From: Haladaptatus sp. R4
Lineage (GTDB): Archaea > Halobacteriota > Halobacteria > Halobacteriales > Haladaptataceae
Assembly (NCBI RefSeq): GCF_001625445.1
Contig: NZ_LWHG01000011.1
Coordinates: 682,001-746,000 of the forward strand
Length of the DNA stretch: 64,000 nt
Direction of reading: 5' to 3'
Shown here: in pieces, positions 47,381 through 63,189 of the stretch
How positions within the stretch are numbered: the first letter of the stretch is position 1
How the letters are laid out: each line of letters begins with the position of its first letter
Program-made: the position numbers and the translations under genes
The notes under the pieces: generated by a model
Told to the model about the DNA's origin: nothing
What the model saw: the letters and a program-made list of their open reading frames with translations, nothing else
Database searches by the model: none

Positions 47381-48154
47381 TTAGCAGTCGTCCGTGTCAC
47401 CGCTGTTCGAGTCGTTCGACGATGTGCTGATGTCGGAATCCGACCCGCTGGAACTGTCACTGGTGGTGGTGTCGCTCGATCCGCCGGAAGTCTCGTCGCT
47501 CGTCGTGGTCGTCTCGTTACCGTCGTCGGTAGTGGTCGCCGTTGTCCCGTCGGTATCGTCAGTCGTGGTCGTTTCGTCGCTCGTCGTGGTCGTCTCTTTC
47601 GTCGTGGTCTCTTCGCTCGTTGTCGTGGTGTCCTCCTCCGTCGTCGTGGTGCTTTCGTCCGTGGTCGATGTCTCGTCGGTCGTCGTCGAGGTGTCGTCGC
47701 CACCGCCGGAACCACCGGAACCGCCACCGAACATGTCGTCCTCGCTGTTTGCGACCTCGTTGCCGTTGGAATCGAGGAGTGCAATCACGTCGCTGCGATT
47801 CCGCTCGATGACCCGTTCGTCGAACGACGGTTGAACGACGACGTCGGCGTCGTCGACCGATACCGCACCGGAGGCAATTTTGATTATCCCACCGGACCCG
47901 ACCGTCGTCCCACTTGGAATCGTGCCGGTCTGGTCCACGCTGTCGTTTCCGTATTCGAAGTCGACGGTCCACCCGGAGAGATCGACCGATCCACTGCTAT
48001 CGTTGTAGAAGGTGATGGTATCCTCGGTTGCCGATACGTTCAGCACCTTGAACGCCGGTGTCCCGTCCTGCTGTCCGAACGCTTGTGTTGCACCGCCGCC
48101 GATCGCGAGTGTCGCTCCTATCCCAGCAAGAACTGTTCTTCGAGTGGGTTCCAT
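47381..48154 (-). CDS. Tat-exported lamin-tail-domain surface protein with Ser/Thr-rich stalk
   Basis: A 257-aa protein. A Tat signal (MEPTRRTVLAGIGATLAIGG) is followed by a lamin-tail-like beta sandwich (about residues 30-130) with VSATEDTITFYNDSSGSVDL, SGWTVDFEYGN and RNRSDVIALLDSNGNEV. From about residue 145 the chain is nearly all Ser, Thr, Asp, Glu and Gly, a likely O-glycosylated stalk of about 110 residues, ending DTDDC. ATG 48154; an upstream Met adds a Cys-rich decapeptide. Convergent with the subtilase gene. Confidence 0.82.
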   Translation of the reverse strand: MEPTRRTVLAGIGATLAIGGGATQAFGQQDGTPAFKVLNVSATEDTITFYNDSSGSVDLSGWTVDFEYGNDSVDQTGTIPSGTTVGSGGIIKIASGAVSVDDADVVVQPSFDERVIERNRSDVIALLDSNGNEVANSEDDMFGGGSGGSGGGDDTSTTTDETSTTDESTTTTEEDTTTTSEETTTKETTTTSDETTTTDDTDGTTATTTDDGNETTTTSDETSGGSSDTTTSDSSSGSDSDISTSSNDSNSGDTDDC

Positions 48155-48625
48155 GATACATTCGCACCAACACAGATTATACACTTAACATGATTTGGTC
48201 ACTGAAGTTCATATCTACGGGAATATAATTTAGGGATGAGTTGACAACTTTAGCGATAAATTCCTAAAATTGAGCTCATTCCATTGAGTCACTAACGGTG
48301 TCGTCCGGCGATATTGGGGTGGTATCGCGGATGGACATTTCGAATCAGAAACTAGACAATATTCTTCCAGGAATCTATTTTTGGATCGTGATGGGAAATA
48401 AAATCACGACAGATCGCCGTTATGTGGTTCGCTCAAGAAGGCGGCGTTTCGTGTCGAAAGAACCCGATGTACTAGCCGTTCGACACCATTACACGACCGA
48501 CCACACCTTCGGCTACGAAGGAGTAGTTTTTCGTAAGAATACGATGCCCGGGGAGGGCACGGAACACGAAGTTCCGAATCCCACTTTAATAGTATAAGTC
48601 AGCACCCGATTTTGGCCTCGATCCG
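48155..48625. other. Composition boundary, no convincing gene
   Basis: G+C drops here relative to the chromosome to the left. A plus-strand frame at 48298-48597 (99 codons) has no family features or start signals. The left edge of the mobile region is probably in or near this gap. No tRNA is visible. Confidence 0.4.
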
Positions 48626-49701: not shown

Positions 49702-49962
49702 ATGCGCCCGCGAGTAGACTGGATGACTCGTGCAGACGATTACATCCTTGAGTTACTAGATGAGGCGGGTATCGCGGCAAATCCCAGTACAATCGGGTTC
49801 AATATCGACTACGACCGCCGATACGTTTCTCAACGTTGTCGGGTCCTCTCTAAGAATAGCCTGCTTGAGCGAGTCGATGAGGCGAAAGCCATGTACCAAA
49901 TCACGGATAAAGGGCGGCAGTATCTTGCTGGCGGGCTCAATGCGGGTGAGCTTGAAGACTAA
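49702..49962 (+). CDS. PhiH1-repressor-like winged-helix protein
   Basis: An 86-aa DNA-binding protein. MTRADDYILELLDEAGIAANP opens the winged helix; the recognition helix region is YDRRYVSQRCRVLSKNSLLE and the wing reads YQITDKGRQYLAGG. The family includes the repressor of Halobacterium virus PhiH and many provirus regulators. The divergent arrangement with the minus-strand ribbon operon (49547) suggests that it controls the shared intergenic region 49548-49701. Confidence 0.8.
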   Translation: MRPRVDWMTRADDYILELLDEAGIAANPSTIGFNIDYDRRYVSQRCRVLSKNSLLERVDEAKAMYQITDKGRQYLAGGLNAGELED

Positions 49963-50004: not shown

Positions 50005-50018
50005 TACATTTATGTAAT
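50005..50018 (+). promoter_or_regulatory. TATA box of the 50045 operon
   Basis: TACATTTATGTAAT is centred about 33 nt before the ATG at 50045, giving a leaderless or near-leaderless transcript for the four-gene operon. Confidence 0.5.
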
Positions 50019-50044: not shown

Positions 50045-51106
50045 ATGGCGGTAGATGATCAAGTACCTGAATCACGATTTAAATATGAAGGTCATCTAAT
50101 ATTCAACGGCCTTTATACAACAGAAGTAGAATCTATCTTCGATAAAGCTGAATCAAATGAGGCATTAGAAGCTCGTTTAGAGGATAAACTTCCCTCATTA
50201 AAAGAGAAATATAACGGCGGCCCACGCAAGGGCTACAGAGACATGGATTTGAGCTATCATCTCAATCTTGAGGAAAGTGACAGTTTAACATCTCACCACA
50301 AAAATCTTGCTGAGAAGCTGGTCGCAAAAGAATATCTTGATGAAGAACTCGGTGACGCGACAACGGTTTTTTCGGATGACAAGGGAAGAGTTTCTGGGAA
50401 GAGATTAGATAAAGATAATGCATATATCTACTGGTTGTTACCTAAACTTTTGATGGTACAAGGTTCTAAGCCAGAAGTAGAGACAACGCTAAGTGATCTC
50501 TATTCTTCACTCGGTCTTACGCAGGATCAGCAGGAAGCATATGCCACTCTTCGTCCAGTGGAGTTTGATAAACATTTCTTATTGTGGCTTGTTTACCGAG
50601 ATTATATCGGAAAAGACATTGGAAAGAATGTTTCTCTTCATAGTATTAGTGAGATAACTATTAAAGGGGGCAGAGATTTCTTTGGTGAAAGTGCTCAGGT
50701 TACAGAATCGACTGATATCCTGCGCTCCACTGCTTTTATTGAAGGATTGTTTAAGAATAAACTGCCAGTGCATCTCAAAGCGATCTTCAAGGTAGGTGGG
50801 CAAAATCTCATGGTAGATATCTCCAAAAGCGGCCGCATACATATATTGTCTAAAGAAGATATAAATAGTTCAACGAAGTTAGAAAGAGTTATGATTGGGT
50901 TACACTTTGTGAGCGAGTTCACCACTCTTCGACAAGATTGGGAATTCTATGATCCTGATAAAAAATATGTTCCTCCAACATTCATAGAGGAACTAAATGA
51001 TGTTGCTAAAGACCAAGGTGCCGAAATAACATTCCGCCGGGAAATCATACCAGAGTTGTTAGATAAGAGAGGAGAGGATCTGGAGGATTGGGACCTTGAT
51101 TTTTAG
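50045..51106 (+). CDS. Unrecognised 353-aa protein A, paralog of 52631-53608
   Basis: First gene of a four-gene A/T-rich operon. Begins VPESRFKYEGHLIFNGL (about residues 7-23) and in its second half has KHFLLWLVYRDYIGKDIG, LHSISEITIKGGRDFFGE and MVDISKSGRIHILSKEDI. These stretches return, in the same order, in the gene at 52631, so the two are diverged duplicates. Acidic, soluble, no transmembrane helix, no nucleotide-binding or nuclease motif that I recognise. The following gene starts 76 nt downstream. Base use differs sharply from the chromosome, a sign of transfer. Confidence 0.72.
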   Translation: MAVDDQVPESRFKYEGHLIFNGLYTTEVESIFDKAESNEALEARLEDKLPSLKEKYNGGPRKGYRDMDLSYHLNLEESDSLTSHHKNLAEKLVAKEYLDEELGDATTVFSDDKGRVSGKRLDKDNAYIYWLLPKLLMVQGSKPEVETTLSDLYSSLGLTQDQQEAYATLRPVEFDKHFLLWLVYRDYIGKDIGKNVSLHSISEITIKGGRDFFGESAQVTESTDILRSTAFIEGLFKNKLPVHLKAIFKVGGQNLMVDISKSGRIHILSKEDINSSTKLERVMIGLHFVSEFTTLRQDWEFYDPDKKYVPPTFIEELNDVAKDQGAEITFRREIIPELLDKRGEDLEDWDLDF

Positions 51107-51182
51107 AAGGGATAACGAAAGAGAGATGTGTTGCCCAAAAATATACCCTCTACCAGCGACTAGTCTAATTGGAGGATAGAAA

Positions 51183-51854
51183 ATGCCTAGAACTCGTGAT
51201 AGCGTTAGACAGGCTGATTTCTCTTCACTTCCAGTAGAAAACTCTATCCAAGATGTCTCTGATGAAATTGAGCTATATGATGTAAATACAATCTCCATCG
51301 AAGTCTATTTGGAAGACTCTGAGGAGTATCCATTTGAAGAACCAAAAAAAACAGAAGGGAAATTCAAATATGAATATTCAGACCAATTGGGTACTGAAAC
51401 AGCGAGCGGGACGTTTCAACTTCGTCACTCATCTCAGTTGTTTGTTGTAAGGAAAGAAAGTGGCACTGCAAGATTAGATCGTATTGTTAGTGTACTTAAT
51501 AATTCTTTAGATGATGCTTTAGAGAGCGATGTCACCATTCACAATCGTTTCCGACCTACTAGAGAAGGTATTTGGACGTTTATTGAGAACGCAACTTGGA
51601 GAAATTACGTGGAAATTCTCACAGATCTTGGTGAAGAGAAACGTGTGAGTGAATATTGTGAAGAAACAGGAAAGAGCTTCGAGAGTATTGTAGGTCGATA
51701 TCCTATACTAAGAGCAGAATTTGTTCTAGAATTGCCTTGGAATGATTCAGTTGACGTGGTATATGATCAAGGACACTTAGAAATATCTACTGATAATATA
51801 GAAGACTACGAATATGTTCTACAACGTTTCGAGACAGATGTATTCAGTAATTAA
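51183..51854 (+). CDS. Unrecognised 223-aa protein B of the same operon
   Basis: Second gene of the operon, with a good ribosome site (GGAGGAT at about 51172-51178) before ATG 51183. Contains a beta-rich front (ISIEVYLEDSEEYPFEEP), a middle with FRPTREGIWTFIENATWRNY, and a last part AEFVLELPWNDSVDVVYDQG then HLEISTDNIEDYEYVLQRFE. The closing strand-strand-helix order is reminiscent of the one in proteins A and A', which may mean a shared small module; this is a weak resemblance. Soluble; no catalytic motif seen. Ends 3 nt before the membrane-protein gene. Confidence 0.7.
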   Translation: MPRTRDSVRQADFSSLPVENSIQDVSDEIELYDVNTISIEVYLEDSEEYPFEEPKKTEGKFKYEYSDQLGTETASGTFQLRHSSQLFVVRKESGTARLDRIVSVLNNSLDDALESDVTIHNRFRPTREGIWTFIENATWRNYVEILTDLGEEKRVSEYCEETGKSFESIVGRYPILRAEFVLELPWNDSVDVVYDQGHLEISTDNIEDYEYVLQRFETDVFSN

Positions 51855-51857
51855 ACT

Positions 51858-52607
51858 ATGACGATATTAGGTTGGGTTGCAAAGAAGATAAGCAAACGGA
51901 CTTCAAAGCCATACGATTTGATTTATGAGAGCTTCCACGAATCCTATAAATCATCCTATCACAAACAACTTGCGCATACTCTTCAAACAGTTCTTTGGGT
52001 GATCGCTTCGATTTTGAGTGGATATCTTGCTTATCGAACTGGGGATGCTACTAAGCTACTCCCCACTCTTACATTCGTTATTATTGCTCTCTTGGGTGTT
52101 TTATTTGTATTCCCAATCTTTCCTTATATACATTGGAGATATGCGAAACCATTCAACTTTATTCCTAAATGGTTCCCGTTAACACAAGATCCAAAAGCAC
52201 TCCAGCAAGCGCACTATGATAAGCTTCGACTTCCAGATGAAGATTCATACCGGATAGTAGTTTTCTTTGATATACCCGGTCATATTGAGGAATATGACTT
52301 CAAACTAATCTCTTCACATGAGGAGTTGGAATTCGAGGTCTTCCCAGAAAAGCAAGGAATGTCTCAAACAATCTATCCAGATGACAAGGGAATCTACAGT
52401 AGCACCGAAATCAATAATGACAATGTTTTCAATATATACACTGTTCAGAAGCGATCCCCCTTTGGAGGAGACCCAAGCCATTTTCTAGAGATTTTAGAGG
52501 TGTCAAATATATCTGGTTTAGCGCGTGGAGATTCTGGATATAATCTTGACGAGGAAATCGCTCGTGAAGAAGGAACTAATATACTGCACATTGATGTTGA
52601 CGAATGA
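51858..52607 (+). CDS. Unrecognised 249-aa membrane protein C of the same operon
   Basis: A basic N-terminus (about residues 1-40), two transmembrane helices (about 41-59, TLQTVLWVIASILSGYLAY, and 67-90, LTFVIIALLGVLFVFPIFPY) and a soluble C-terminal domain of about 155 residues with YRIVVFFDIPGHIEEYDFKL and SHEELEFEVFPEKQG, probably beta-sandwich. A membrane-anchored partner of A, B and A' is the natural reading. No known family. The ATG is 3 nt after the previous stop. Confidence 0.72.
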   Translation: MTILGWVAKKISKRTSKPYDLIYESFHESYKSSYHKQLAHTLQTVLWVIASILSGYLAYRTGDATKLLPTLTFVIIALLGVLFVFPIFPYIHWRYAKPFNFIPKWFPLTQDPKALQQAHYDKLRLPDEDSYRIVVFFDIPGHIEEYDFKLISSHEELEFEVFPEKQGMSQTIYPDDKGIYSSTEINNDNVFNIYTVQKRSPFGGDPSHFLEILEVSNISGLARGDSGYNLDEEIAREEGTNILHIDVDE

Positions 52608-52630
52608 ACCAACAATGCTGGTGATATAGA

Positions 52631-53608
52631 ATGAGCGGAAAATCCTTCTCTTATGATGGGCACCTAATATTTAATCGCATTGCTAGATTCCCTAGTGAGC
52701 TAAATTCCGTATTAGAAAGGTTAGCATCTCATGATGAAGACGAAGAGTCAAATTACAGCATGAGAACATCATTCGAGGAATTAGAATTGTCAAAATATGA
52801 TGGATTTCCCGAATTAGACCCATCTTTTCGGATTCTTTCTGAAGAACTTAATTTACTGCGATTTACTAAAGAAAGCGCCGGGTCTATTTCTACAGTACTT
52901 ACTGAAGATGGATCACGGGTCAAGGCACGCCCCATCCATCAATCAGTTGTTGATGTCATTTGGAAGACACCAGAAAGAGTTTTTTTCTTCGGAGGCCGAT
53001 CTGAGACGGATAATGCGTTCAAAGAGATCATAAAGCAATCTAATATAGATCGCCCTAAGCAAATATCGTTCAATCCATTCTTTTTCCTTTGGGTATTCTA
53101 CAAGTATTTTGAAGATGACAAAATAGGGGACATAGATATACTCTCGCTGAAGGAGGCAAAATTTGATGGGGACGGGTCTGAATTTGGTCGCCAACTTTCA
53201 GTCAATGGGTCTGATTTAGAAAAAGATATGAGCGTCATAGCGGGTCTGTTAACGGGAAAAAAGTTAAATCAATTAGGAGGTGTATTTTCCATTGAAGGCC
53301 ATTATGTTGATCTTACACTACATTCAAATGGCAGAATACATATCAAAGCTGCAGAGGATATTCAACGATCAAACAGTCTCGTACGCTATCTAACTGCTAT
53401 CAATACAATCGAATCGATAACAAAGTTATACGAGAGTTGGACTCATAGACCAGATGAACGCCGATACCCTCCCCCTGATTTTTATTTGAATCTTCGAGAA
53501 TATGCCAAATCAGAAGGGGTAGATATTCAGTACAATATTCGTCCCCCCATGGAAGAGCTGGCTCAAAAGCGAGGCAATGAATTGGATAGTTTTCTAGAGG
53601 ACGATTAG
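52631..53608 (+). CDS. Unrecognised 325-aa protein A', paralog of 50045-51106
   Basis: Fourth gene, 23 nt after protein C, with GGTGAT at about 52619-52624 as ribosome site. SFSYDGHLIFNRIARF at its start and later FFLWVFYKYFEDDKIGDI, DILSLKEAKFDGDGSEFGR, VDLTLHSNGRIHIKAAEDI and RYPPPDFYLNLREYAKSEG match protein A in order. It ends LAQKRGNELDSFLEDD, as A ends LLDKRGEDLEDWDLDF. Having both diverged copies in one operon suggests a heteromeric complex rather than a redundant pair. Confidence 0.72.
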   Translation: MSGKSFSYDGHLIFNRIARFPSELNSVLERLASHDEDEESNYSMRTSFEELELSKYDGFPELDPSFRILSEELNLLRFTKESAGSISTVLTEDGSRVKARPIHQSVVDVIWKTPERVFFFGGRSETDNAFKEIIKQSNIDRPKQISFNPFFFLWVFYKYFEDDKIGDIDILSLKEAKFDGDGSEFGRQLSVNGSDLEKDMSVIAGLLTGKKLNQLGGVFSIEGHYVDLTLHSNGRIHIKAAEDIQRSNSLVRYLTAINTIESITKLYESWTHRPDERRYPPPDFYLNLREYAKSEGVDIQYNIRPPMEELAQKRGNELDSFLEDD

Positions 53609-54152: not shown

Positions 54153-54506
54153 ATGGCACAATCGATTGATGAGATTCACTCACTGATTCTCGAAGCGATG
54201 GAGCGGCGCAAAACAATCACACTGGAGTATAAAGGCGAAAGTGAACAACGCTATCACGAGAGGGAGTTCGAGCCGTGGTGCTATGGGGTACACCGCACGA
54301 CTGGAAATCGCGTCCTCCGCTGTTATCAAACCAGAGGTCACAGTGAATCTGGTATGCCTGATGAGTTGCCGTTCTGGCGACTTGCTCGGGTAGACCGGAT
54401 GAGATCGGTTTCCATCACAGACAATAATATTCGTGATGACTCTCCCCCGTACTACAACCCCCAGGACAAGGATATGAGAAGTTATTTCGACAGTCTTCCG
54501 AAATAG
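54153..54506 (+). CDS. Free-standing WYL-like domain protein
   Basis: A 117-aa protein with the arrangement of a WYL domain: a front helix (IHSLILEAMERRKTITLEYK), a strand ending in EFEPWCYGVHRTTGNRVLR, then CYQTRGHSESGMP and FWRLARVDRMRSVSITDNN. WYL domains bind nucleic acid or a nucleotide ligand and often control or serve antiviral systems. No fused HTH is present. ATG 54153 follows an A/T-rich promoter block. It lies between the A-B-C-A' operon and another unrecognised membrane gene. Confidence 0.7.
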   Translation: MAQSIDEIHSLILEAMERRKTITLEYKGESEQRYHEREFEPWCYGVHRTTGNRVLRCYQTRGHSESGMPDELPFWRLARVDRMRSVSITDNNIRDDSPPYYNPQDKDMRSYFDSLPK

Positions 54507-54713: not shown

Positions 54714-55550
54714 ATGGGAAAAGAGATGAATGAATACATCGTAAATCTGACTGGTTTAGAAGACTACAAAGAGTTCGTTGATTCATTTTCGATTGAACAC
54801 ACCGATGCGGCAACGCATAGAGCCCGAAGAATCACAAATAACACAAAATGGAGAGAGAGGACAGGTGTGGGTTTGATGTTATTAATGGTTATTTCTACCG
54901 TGCTCACGCTGTATAGTCATGATTTCGAAATAATATTAGCTGGCGCTCTTTTTATAGTATTTATTGTCGTGTTTGCCGATAATATACTTAATTCAGCATC
55001 AAGCTATCAAGCTCGAAAATCGGAGACAACAGATAAAGACCTCATATACTACGAATTTAATTGTGCTATACAAGACTACCAGAGTGAAGATTATAGGGAA
55101 GTCTACAACCATATGTCAAATATCAATTCCGTTATTAGAAGAGGGCAGAGAAAAAGACAGGGTCTTTCCTACCGATCATATCAGTGGTTTAGAATATACA
55201 TTACTGCCTTAGAAAAAGCGCAAGATAAAGAACAGGCAATATCAGAGACATTTGGGCGGTTTGCCGAAGAGCAGCTAAAGAATCTCATGAATAATCAAAC
55301 CGATTTGATAAGAGATATTGTTGATGAAATTGATTATGAAGAAGATAGTATTGAGATGAATGGAACATATAGGGCGATTCTAGATGTCTGGAAGACTTTC
55401 ACAACGTTCGTATCAAGTGGAATCCTTGTGGCAGTTCTCTCGATTATAGGCGGGGTTGTAGTCATATATGTATTCGATGAAAAGGCAATAGGGATCGCAA
55501 TCCCAAGCGTGATTCTATTGATGTATCAGATAAATCTTCAAGAGAAATAG
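54714..55550 (+). CDS. Unrecognised 278-aa membrane protein
   Basis: A soluble, charged front (residues 1-45), two adjacent helices (about 50-90, GVGLMLLMVISTVLTLYS and ILAGALFIVFIVVFADNIL), a long charged helical middle (YEFNCAIQDYQSEDYREVYN, RFAEEQLKNLMNNQTDLIRD) and two C-terminal helices (about 230-272). A/T-rich, so recently acquired. The start may be ATG 54714 or 54726. No family recognised; the layout resembles membrane-anchored effectors of defence modules, but this is only an impression. Confidence 0.65.
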   Translation: MGKEMNEYIVNLTGLEDYKEFVDSFSIEHTDAATHRARRITNNTKWRERTGVGLMLLMVISTVLTLYSHDFEIILAGALFIVFIVVFADNILNSASSYQARKSETTDKDLIYYEFNCAIQDYQSEDYREVYNHMSNINSVIRRGQRKRQGLSYRSYQWFRIYITALEKAQDKEQAISETFGRFAEEQLKNLMNNQTDLIRDIVDEIDYEEDSIEMNGTYRAILDVWKTFTTFVSSGILVAVLSIIGGVVVIYVFDEKAIGIAIPSVILLMYQINLQEK

Positions 55551-58729: not shown

Positions 58730-58865
58730 ATTTGGTATTGTGGATGCTTCTACAGGGGCAAAAAAAGATAGCAAACATACTGAACGGCTAACAGAGGTCG
58801 TGGTTTCGTTTTTCCCTGAAATTCCATGCCCACCCTTTAACCCTCATTTTTCGGAACCACCACTT

Positions 58866-60113
58866 ATGACCGCTGACCCGGCTGGCTCTATCGAGAGATT
58901 GCGCAACCGCGTCGAAAGATCAGACACGATTACCCCACAAGATCGAGAGAACATCCTCGCGTTCAGTAATCGAATGGCACTACTTCGAAGCGAATACTCC
59001 GACCAACGCCACGAGAAACTGCTCGGCCATATCACTCGAATGGCTGAACAGATCGAGGACATCAGCGATGCGCTCGATGATCGGAAGAAAGCCGAGGACG
59101 TCGTCCGCTGGATCAACCGCAACTACGACAACGAAGAGACGAACAAGGACTACCGGATTGCGTTTCGTGTATTTGCCAAACGTGTCACCGACGGTGATGA
59201 TACGCCGGACAGCATCGATTGGATTCCTTCCGGCTACTCGAACAACTACGATCCGGCACCGAACCCGAAGAACATGCTCCGGTGGGAAGGAGACATTCTC
59301 CCGATGGTCAAGGGAACGCGCAATTCTCGTGACGCTGCTCTCGTCACGGTCGCTTGGGATTCCGGCGCACGTCCTGGTGAGCTACAATCGCTCACCGTCG
59401 GCGACGTCACAGACTACAAACACGGACTCCAAGTCACGGTTGAGGGAAAAACCGGTCAGCGAACCGTCTCGCTAATTCCGAGTGTGCCTTATCTTCAGCG
59501 TTGGTTAACCGACCATCCTGATTCGGGCGATCCGAATGCACCTCTATGGAGTAAGCTCTCTTCCCCGGATCAACTCTCAAATCGGATGCTACGAAAGGCG
59601 CTGAACAGCGCGGCAGACCGAGCAGGTGTGAAGAAGCCCGTAAATCTCACCAATTTCCGAAAATCGTCGGCCTCGTACCTTGCGAGCCAAAATGTGAACC
59701 AGGCACATCTGGAGGATCACCATGGCTGGACTCGTGGGAGCAAAGTCGCTGCACGTTATGTATCGGTATTCGGTGGAGACAGTGACCGGGAGATCGCCCG
59801 CGCACATGGACTCGATGTCGGGGAAGATGAACCGGATCCGATTGCTCCATTAGAATGTCCCCGCTGTAAGCGAGAAACACCGCGCCAGGAGGAGTTTTGT
59901 GTTTGGTGTGGACAAGCAGTTGAACCCGGTGCTATCGAGACGATGGAGAATGATCAGCGAGAAACACGAGCTGCGTTACTTCGGCTTGCACAAGAGGATC
60001 CCAAGCTACTTGATAGAGTCGAGCAGCTACAGGATGTTATGGCCCTTACGGACGAACACCCAGACCTCCTTCCTGATGCTCAGCGATTCGTGAACACGCT
60101 TCGCGAGGACTAA
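58866..60113 (+). CDS. int: Tyrosine recombinase/integrase with C-terminal zinc ribbon
   Basis: A 415-aa site-specific recombinase that probably integrates and excises the surrounding element. ATG 58866 (MTADPAGSIERLRNRVERSD); the frame to 58740 adds a non-homologous head. A helical core-binding region (about 1-140) precedes the catalytic part with Arg in ARPGELQSLTVGDVTDYKH, the second box VNLTNFRKSSASYLAS (where HxxR is replaced by a TNFR-type box), His in LEDHHGWTRGSKVAAR and the nucleophile Tyr in RYVSVFGGD. A zinc ribbon CPRCKRETP ... CVWCGQ follows, with a helical tail. G+C is higher than its neighbours. Confidence 0.9.
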   Translation: MTADPAGSIERLRNRVERSDTITPQDRENILAFSNRMALLRSEYSDQRHEKLLGHITRMAEQIEDISDALDDRKKAEDVVRWINRNYDNEETNKDYRIAFRVFAKRVTDGDDTPDSIDWIPSGYSNNYDPAPNPKNMLRWEGDILPMVKGTRNSRDAALVTVAWDSGARPGELQSLTVGDVTDYKHGLQVTVEGKTGQRTVSLIPSVPYLQRWLTDHPDSGDPNAPLWSKLSSPDQLSNRMLRKALNSAADRAGVKKPVNLTNFRKSSASYLASQNVNQAHLEDHHGWTRGSKVAARYVSVFGGDSDREIARAHGLDVGEDEPDPIAPLECPRCKRETPRQEEFCVWCGQAVEPGAIETMENDQRETRAALLRLAQEDPKLLDRVEQLQDVMALTDEHPDLLPDAQRFVNTLRED

Positions 60114-62172: not shown

Positions 62173-63189
62173 TTAATCGCCCATACTTGGCGCTGGCTGT
62201 CCCTCTCGAAGCTGTTGCTTTACGTTCGACACATGGCTTTGACTCATCTTCGCGATATCGCCGATGTCTCCCTGTGAAACATCGAATTTCGGATGTTGGA
62301 GTATCCGAGAAATAATGGCATCGCGCTCGTCACGCCGTGCCTCCTCCCGCACTTGCTCGATAATAGCCTGATGCTCCGCCTGTTCGACGTAGCGGTCTGA
62401 TCCGTCATCGCCCGGATTTCGGAGACGTTTGCGCTTCTCCTTGGTGAGTGCCCGATACACGGGATTACCCTTGTCGATGTCGGACCATTCGAGTCGCTGG
62501 ACCGGCACAGGGTATTTTTTCTTCTCGAATGGGTTGTTCCGCAGGCTGTAAACCCGTGCGAGACCGCGCCTCTGGACCAATATCCAGTAATGCGCCAAAT
62601 CGAGAATGTTCTTATCGATGTGATTCGAGGCGGGCATGTTCAGGGTCACATACTTCTGCTCGACCCGGCCCATACTGACGATCTCGCTCATCATCCGGTT
62701 AATCTTCGTCATCGCCTCCCGGCTGCCAATCCCGGCCTCCGCTTCGTCCAGGGCTAACGCACTCCCTTGGGGATGGTCGGTATACCCGTTAATCACCTTC
62801 TGCGGCACGATAGACGCCTTCTCGGGCGTAAATCCCGCGTCGGTTCGGTCCATTTTCTTACACAAATCAATAGTGAGAACGGTCTTGCCGGTACCCCTGT
62901 CGTTGTGATAATCCGAAATCAGTATCAGCAAGTCCTGGCCGTTCTTGACCCGTCGTTCGTAATCCTGCCAGAACGGCGTTGATTCGAACGGCATCCGCTC
63001 GGGTACGTCGGGTTGGATCGAAAGCAACGAGTCGGGCAACGACATGGCCGGAGGGCGCTGTTGGAGTTCCGGTGAGACCTCCTGGAGAGTTGTGGGTTGA
63101 GACGGTGCGAGCGGCGTCACGGGCGACGTAGAAGCTAACTCCCGGTCATGTTCGATGAATTCCGTCACGTCTTGGGTTTCGGCGCTCAT
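62173..63189 (-). CDS. P-loop ATPase with C-terminal helix-turn-helix (viral/plasmid type)
   Basis: A 338-aa protein. The N-terminal 75 residues are Pro/Gln-rich and low in structure. A P-loop follows as DRGTGKTVLTIDLCKKMD (about residues 97-114), with a Walker B-like SALALDEAEAGIGSREAM (about 146-163); the order resembles the packaging/FtsK-HerA-type ATPases of haloarchaeal tailless viruses and plasmids. The C-terminal QGDIGDIAKMSQSHVSNVKQ is a helix-turn-helix. ATG 63189 overlaps the stop of the upstream gene (ATGA). Exact role (DNA packaging or transfer) not provable. Confidence 0.7.
   Translation of the reverse strand: MSAETQDVTEFIEHDRELASTSPVTPLAPSQPTTLQEVSPELQQRPPAMSLPDSLLSIQPDVPERMPFESTPFWQDYERRVKNGQDLLILISDYHNDRGTGKTVLTIDLCKKMDRTDAGFTPEKASIVPQKVINGYTDHPQGSALALDEAEAGIGSREAMTKINRMMSEIVSMGRVEQKYVTLNMPASNHIDKNILDLAHYWILVQRRGLARVYSLRNNPFEKKKYPVPVQRLEWSDIDKGNPVYRALTKEKRKRLRNPGDDGSDRYVEQAEHQAIIEQVREEARRDERDAIISRILQHPKFDVSQGDIGDIAKMSQSHVSNVKQQLREGQPAPSMGD

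Follow-up and report, generated by a model that had tools for sequence, protein, structure and literature searches.

A conserved, mobile three-gene cassette of haloarchaea encoding a protein of predicted RdgC-like fold next to a membrane protein

A 64,000-nucleotide stretch of Haladaptatus sp. R4 DNA (contig NZ_LWHG01000011.1, positions 682,001 to 746,000; this whole stretch is referred to as the window) contains an A/T-rich operon of four genes, designated A, B, C, and A'. An initial annotation, made from the DNA letters only, had recognised none of the four families and proposed, from their context, that they form a defence system. Open reading frame (ORF) coordinates confirmed four genes on the same strand, separated by gaps of 76, 3, and 23 nucleotides (nt), and the G+C content across the operon was 38-40%, as compared to approximately 62% in most of the remaining window. 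Searches of Pfam, PADLOC, NCBIfam, PHROGs, and PDB sequences with A, B, and C yielded nothing usable, in agreement with the earlier failure to recognise these families. The four genes are listed below, with the evidence used for each in brackets (aa, amino acids).

50045-51106, + strand: A, 353-aa protein with a predicted RdgC-like fold, presumed DNA-clamp subunit (ORF; AlphaFold2 model; Foldseek)
51183-51854, + strand: B, 223-aa soluble partner of A, possibly a shorter RdgC/RexA-type subunit (ORF; genome search)
51858-52607, + strand: C, 249-aa membrane protein with a beta domain and two hydrophobic segments near its N-terminus (ORF; hydropathy of the family)
52631-53608, + strand: A', 325-aa diverged paralog of A in a fourth slot (ORF; identity to A; tree)

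A profile built from A and A' detected relatives of A in 30 of 392 haloarchaeal genomes, which represented 21 genera. Named carriers included Halobaculum roseum and Haladaptatus halobius, both with A on plasmids, as well as Halomarina oriensis, Natrinema hispanicum, Halalkalicoccus paucihalophilus, and Halomicrobium katesii; the cassette was located on chromosomes as well as on plasmids. Gene calling around A in approximately 30 haloarchaeal loci showed a recurring arrangement, in which A was followed after 32-95 nt by B and B, after -4 to 11 nt, by C. When B was searched alone, 29 occurrences were found in 28 of the 392 genomes. Every one of these adjoined A, and no B was encountered away from A, for example in the kind of housekeeping setting that the initial annotation had named as evidence against its proposal; a housekeeping role of B was therefore dropped. 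Since B always adjoined A and the order A-B-C recurred, these three genes form the conserved unit, with B and C as fixed neighbours of A, in line with their earlier designation as its partners. The four-gene set A-B-C-A' is real, but was abandoned as the basic unit: A' is one of several genes that can fill a fourth slot, and the variant that contains it was restricted to three related loci. Two loci (L042 and L044) additionally held an A-C pair without B. The distribution of this fixed gene set was patchy, with B present in 4 of the 28 genomes of the host's family and the cassette absent from the corresponding site of a congener (see below).

No homologs of A were found in phage records or in pattern scans of viral contigs. 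Directly upstream of A, 10 loci (L036:7630-8298 and nine others) encoded a 230-aa protein (cluster c4) that was approximately 50% identical between genomes, matched PHROG 18169 (E 1e-41), and had weak homologs in Halorubrum viruses BJ1 and Humcor1. Two genomes of a distant archaeal class, one of methanogens, contained a trio in the order soluble protein, membrane protein, A (L077:7845-9986; L114:9349-11551). Its A part was recognised with E 6e-8 and its first two proteins showed no sequence tie to B and C; the L077 trio adjoined what reads as type I restriction genes.

A and A' were homologous end to end (26% identity, E 1e-35) and shared the motifs GHLIFN, FLLW/FFLW, GRIHI, and KRG. In a tree of 42 A proteins, A of the window grouped with the first genes of loci L034 and L035 (support 100/100), and A' of the window with the fourth genes of these same loci (support 97/96). 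Because the separate A and A' clades span the three families to which the three A-B-C-A' genomes belong, this variant represents an old subtype with co-inherited A and A'. These results bear out that the two are diverged paralogs and support their earlier assignment as probably distinct subunits. Adjoining the A-B-C-A' genes of L034 was an MCM-type replicative helicase (L034:11945-14353; NCBIfam E 1e-106, below the curated cut-off), which suggests an element that replicates or once did so.

Elsewhere, the slot after C was occupied by a Shedu SduA nuclease gene that overlapped C by 4 nt (L003), by the gene for a 2144-aa TmtA (Tiamat) protein 85 nt downstream (L039, with a homolog of TmtA in L040), or by the gene for a Cdc6-like AAA protein (L037). 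In some loci the slot was empty, and in L055 an HNH/SRA-type protein was encoded 336 nt downstream. A sister cassette consisted of a shorter A, an AlbA_2 (Schlafen) protein (PF04326, E 1e-11), and a further protein carrying a single membrane helix at its C-terminus; the gene for this last protein often lay in tail-to-tail orientation on the other strand. It was found in seven loci (L038, L041, L047, L048, L052, L054, and L062), five of which had it beside an A-B-C cassette.

An AlphaFold2 model of A, based on nine aligned homologs, had a predicted local distance difference test score (pLDDT) of 78.5 and a predicted template modelling score (pTM) of 0.81. In a Foldseek comparison with the PDB, the only matches with an E value below 0.001 were to Escherichia coli RdgC (2owl; E 3e-7 and 1e-6, probability 1.00), in alignments of 330 and 326 columns with TM-scores of 0.42-0.51. 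Comparison with viral models gave 13 matches below 0.001, of which five were named RdgC or recombination-associated protein and two further ones exonuclease, a name that phage RdgC genes are also given; most others were unnamed. A is thus predicted to have an RdgC-like fold with center, tip, and base domains, whose placement may differ in a model that was built from nine sequences and matched at these TM-scores. The Pfam RdgC model (PF04381) did not match any of the 42 A proteins, nor anything in the 28 genomes of the host's family, host included, and a literature search found no reports of RdgC-type proteins in haloarchaea. In the case of RexA and RdgC, sequence-based fold prediction failed and a crystal structure revealed their kinship (PMC11077077).

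RdgC forms a ring, binds DNA non-specifically, and inhibits RecA. RexA, which has the center and base domains in common with RdgC, is a DNA-binding dimer that excludes phage together with the membrane protein RexB (PMC11077077). Although A is strongly acidic, with a net charge of approximately -8 per 100 residues, several of its basic columns are conserved (R264, H266, R281, K307, K341, and R342), which fits DNA binding without proving it. Since RdgC is itself a known non-defence family, the match of A in this structural comparison, which the initial annotation had proposed as a check, is not on its own a proof of defence.

Alternatively, A-B-C might not serve in defence but act as a recombination modulator, an RdgC analogue that would shield the mobile element, or its plasmid or provirus, by restraining recombination driven by RadA. 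Such a modulator would not be expected to have nuclease and ATPase modules exchanged beside C, and A is absent from the viral sequences searched. Furthermore, C is membrane-bound in most members, unlike RdgC, for which we know of no membrane partner. RecA inhibition by RdgC, the frequent occurrence of RdgC on phages and plasmids, the presence of A-B-C on plasmids and on an island with an integrase, and the replication genes near some loci (MCM beside L034, Cdc6-like beside L037) are all compatible with this alternative, which we nevertheless consider unlikely.

The model of B, built from seven sequences (pLDDT 74), showed no significant match in the PDB. Its non-significant matches included, at the high TM-score end, CENP-N/Chl4 chains (7qoo_N, 0.25; 8ow1_N, 0.24). 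From residue 86, the order of strands (E) and helices (H) in B was E-H-E-H-E-E-H-E-E-E-H, identical to that of residues 135-300 of A when a short helix was counted with its neighbour in each protein. A profile comparison of A and B aligned the same parts in register, without reaching significance (P 0.13). The shared order is suggestive; B is possibly a short RdgC-type subunit, to which we give roughly an even chance.

The CENP-N/Chl4 chains among these non-significant matches bear on an alternative in which the cassette serves membrane-tethered partition or copy control, with an A/B heterodimer of the Iml3-Chl4 (CENP-L/CENP-N) type holding element DNA for inheritance. RexA and RdgC share their scaffold with Iml3-Chl4, which acts as a heterodimer on DNA (PMC11077077), and the cassette occurs on plasmids. 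Iml3-Chl4 itself has a role at eukaryotic centromeres. Chromosomal as well as plasmid locations, a patchy distribution, the variable nuclease-type modules alongside, and the absence of centromere-like repeats at the window locus all argue against a partition system, which appears very improbable.

Near its N-terminus, C of the window has two hydrophobic segments, with Kyte-Doolittle values of 1.36 (residue 41) and 2.69 (residue 67). Two such segments were present in 23 of 29 members of the C family, consistent with the two-helix membrane anchor that had been proposed. This assignment holds for most loci and not for all: the third gene of L053 encoded only C's beta domain (E 5e-5), without membrane helices, and the third genes of L059 and L061 encoded soluble proteins that also lack membrane helices and whose relation to C is unproven. 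Because L053 keeps only the beta domain, the membrane part of C is usual but dispensable, and an anchor fits better than a pore; C as a channel was demoted after this finding. It likewise speaks against abortive infection, in which C would be a killing pore released by A/B upon sensing of phage DNA, as proposed for RexAB, and C does not resemble RexB in sequence or topology. A putative DNA binder and a membrane protein share one operon in A-B-C as in RexAB (PMC11077077), and the paired N-terminal helices of most C proteins would suit such a scenario. Even so, its probability is considered low.

The operon is preceded by two features and followed by two genes of the surrounding island.

49702-49962, + strand: winged-helix-like protein of 86 aa, presumed regulator upstream of A (ORF; HTH_45, E 0.008)
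50009-50014, + strand: TATA-like element TTTATG, presumed operon promoter (read from the sequence)
54153-54506, strand not given: WYL gene, island context (Pfam, E 1.9e-5)
58740-60113, + strand: tyrosine integrase, island context, outside the system (PF00589, E 2.2e-12)

The winged-helix-like gene, which the initial annotation had overlooked, lay 82 nt upstream of A on the same strand, and its best Pfam match was below the cut-off; similar small genes (cluster c3) immediately preceded A in L047, L049, and L055. As to the operon's own TATA box, a TATA-like element is present 30 nt ahead of the start codon of A, and its function as promoter is presumed. The WYL-like gene and the integrase reported in the initial annotation were both recovered by Pfam. 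Between them, positions 54714-55550 encoded a protein of 278 aa that matched BrxB weakly (E 0.004) and was predicted to contain membrane segments. Further along the island, positions 62173-63189 (- strand) encoded a protein with a GTGKT-like P-loop and a DEAE motif that had no convincing library match and resembled a plasmid or virus ATPase. Upstream of the operon, the product of 47381-48184 (- strand) had a long Thr/Ser/Asp/Glu-rich repeat tail, with repeats seen also in the DNA, and is probably a secreted surface protein.

A congener (G736) shared the flank of the island (window positions 44.0-48.8 kb), followed by a shorter stretch without A-B-C-A' and, at the same position, a truncated integrase copy with 92% identity to 58818-59287. 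Together with the integrase and the patchy occurrence within the host's family, this site supported the mobile setting that had been proposed. No convincing attachment-site repeats were found at the window locus. Instead of the cassette, the G736 site (L111:6198-7060) carried genes for a 120-aa and a 167-aa protein, a pair that resembles a toxin-antitoxin system of the ribbon-helix-helix/PIN kind.

Neighbours of the cassette in other genomes included genes for type IIG restriction (L045), a DISARM-like helicase (L035), TmtA (L039 and L060), SduA (L003), and the HNH/SRA-type protein (L055). In total, approximately 8-10 of 30 loci had restriction-modification, Shedu, DISARM-type, or Tiamat genes close by, in small samples and with some assignments made by clustering alone, as compared to one DISARM operon and generic matches in 20 control regions; the enrichment in defence genes was thus modest. 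The neighbourhood search proposed in the initial annotation therefore established that A, B, and C stay together, while the proximity of known defence genes is suggestive of a defence role and not decisive.

Several known systems resemble the cassette in part. With RdgC (PF04381), A shares its predicted fold over nearly the whole length and a similar size; it differs in having no detectable sequence similarity and in sharing its operon with two partners, B and a membrane protein. RexAB of phage lambda, of the Sbash and CarolAnn phages, and of a Pseudomonas putida prophage places an RdgC-type DNA-binding protein beside a membrane protein (PMC11077077, PMC12894663), as the cassette is predicted to do, and the DNA-binding dimer of RexAB acts with that membrane protein (PMC11077077). 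In contrast to RexAB, A has no sequence match to lambda RexA, B is an extra gene, the cassette was not found in the viral sequences searched, and no CI-type repressor was seen beside it. RexB has four membrane helices, whereas C has two helices and a beta domain, and C of the window has no match to Pfam RexB. In Kiwa, a membrane sensor recruits a DNA-binding protein and injected DNA is blocked without cutting (PMC12904381). The cassette shares with KwaA/KwaB the combination of a membrane protein and a DNA-binding protein (PMC12904381), the DNA-binding role being predicted in the case of A. It differs in that neither A nor the window's C had a PADLOC or Pfam match to KwaA or KwaB (DUF4868), and no KwaB chain was among the 50 structural matches listed for A. 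The best reading is that A-B-C(-A') may work like RexAB or Kiwa, without being a sequence member of either.

We tentatively propose, with a confidence somewhat short of even, that A-B-C is a mobile haloarchaeal cassette for a membrane-tethered clamp of RdgC fold that acts on foreign DNA. In this proposal, A (and A') would dimerise around double-stranded DNA, similar to RdgC and RexA, as A-A, A-A', or A with B. B would be required as a partner and might itself be a short subunit with the RdgC fold, and C would tie the complex to the membrane via its two helices and to partners via its beta domain. Upon entry of viral or plasmid DNA, the clamp would load on this DNA at the membrane and either block replication or recombination of that DNA or pass on a signal via C or the fourth-slot module. 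The fourth-slot modules (A', the Shedu-type nuclease, the Tiamat-like ATPase) might add cutting or ATP-driven steps in some lineages. In a more elaborate version, C would hold a clamp made up of two or three subunits (A, B, A') at the membrane, where it would catch entering DNA and pass it to exchangeable effectors (Shedu, Tiamat-like ATPase, Schlafen/AlbA_2); this would be an archaeal immune system of an undescribed kind and is regarded as a weaker candidate. Conservation of the cassette, the predicted fold of A, the membrane segments of C, the changing content of the fourth slot, and mobility were observed; DNA clamping, assembly of a complex, and activity against foreign DNA are inferred.

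Several observations weigh against a membrane-tethered clamp acting on foreign DNA. RdgC modulates recombination rather than serving in defence, and phages and plasmids commonly carry it. Profile comparison of A with RdgC was not significant, with 10 of 100 shuffles scoring equally well; moreover, this column-shuffle control proved too lenient, because a presumably unrelated RdgC/AlbA_2-family pair also beat all shuffles, and it was therefore not used as support. Profile comparison with RexA showed no sequence link, and RexA was not among the PDB or viral-library matches listed for A. To these are added the helix-free third genes and the modest defence enrichment described above.

To our knowledge, no RdgC/RexA-type systems were previously known in archaea. 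If the clamp with exchangeable effectors is correct, A-B-C would be the first archaeal system of this type, and the logic of RexA and RexB would be a general one. RexAB, among the exclusion systems that have been known longest, still lacks a settled mechanism; a compact, modular archaeal relative by predicted fold, with an extra partner and interchangeable neighbours, would offer a genetically tractable view of an RdgC-type clamp at the membrane. As far as we know, the predicted fold of A would extend the RdgC/RexA fold into archaea, and the cassette provides a working description for three gene families that are left blank in public libraries.

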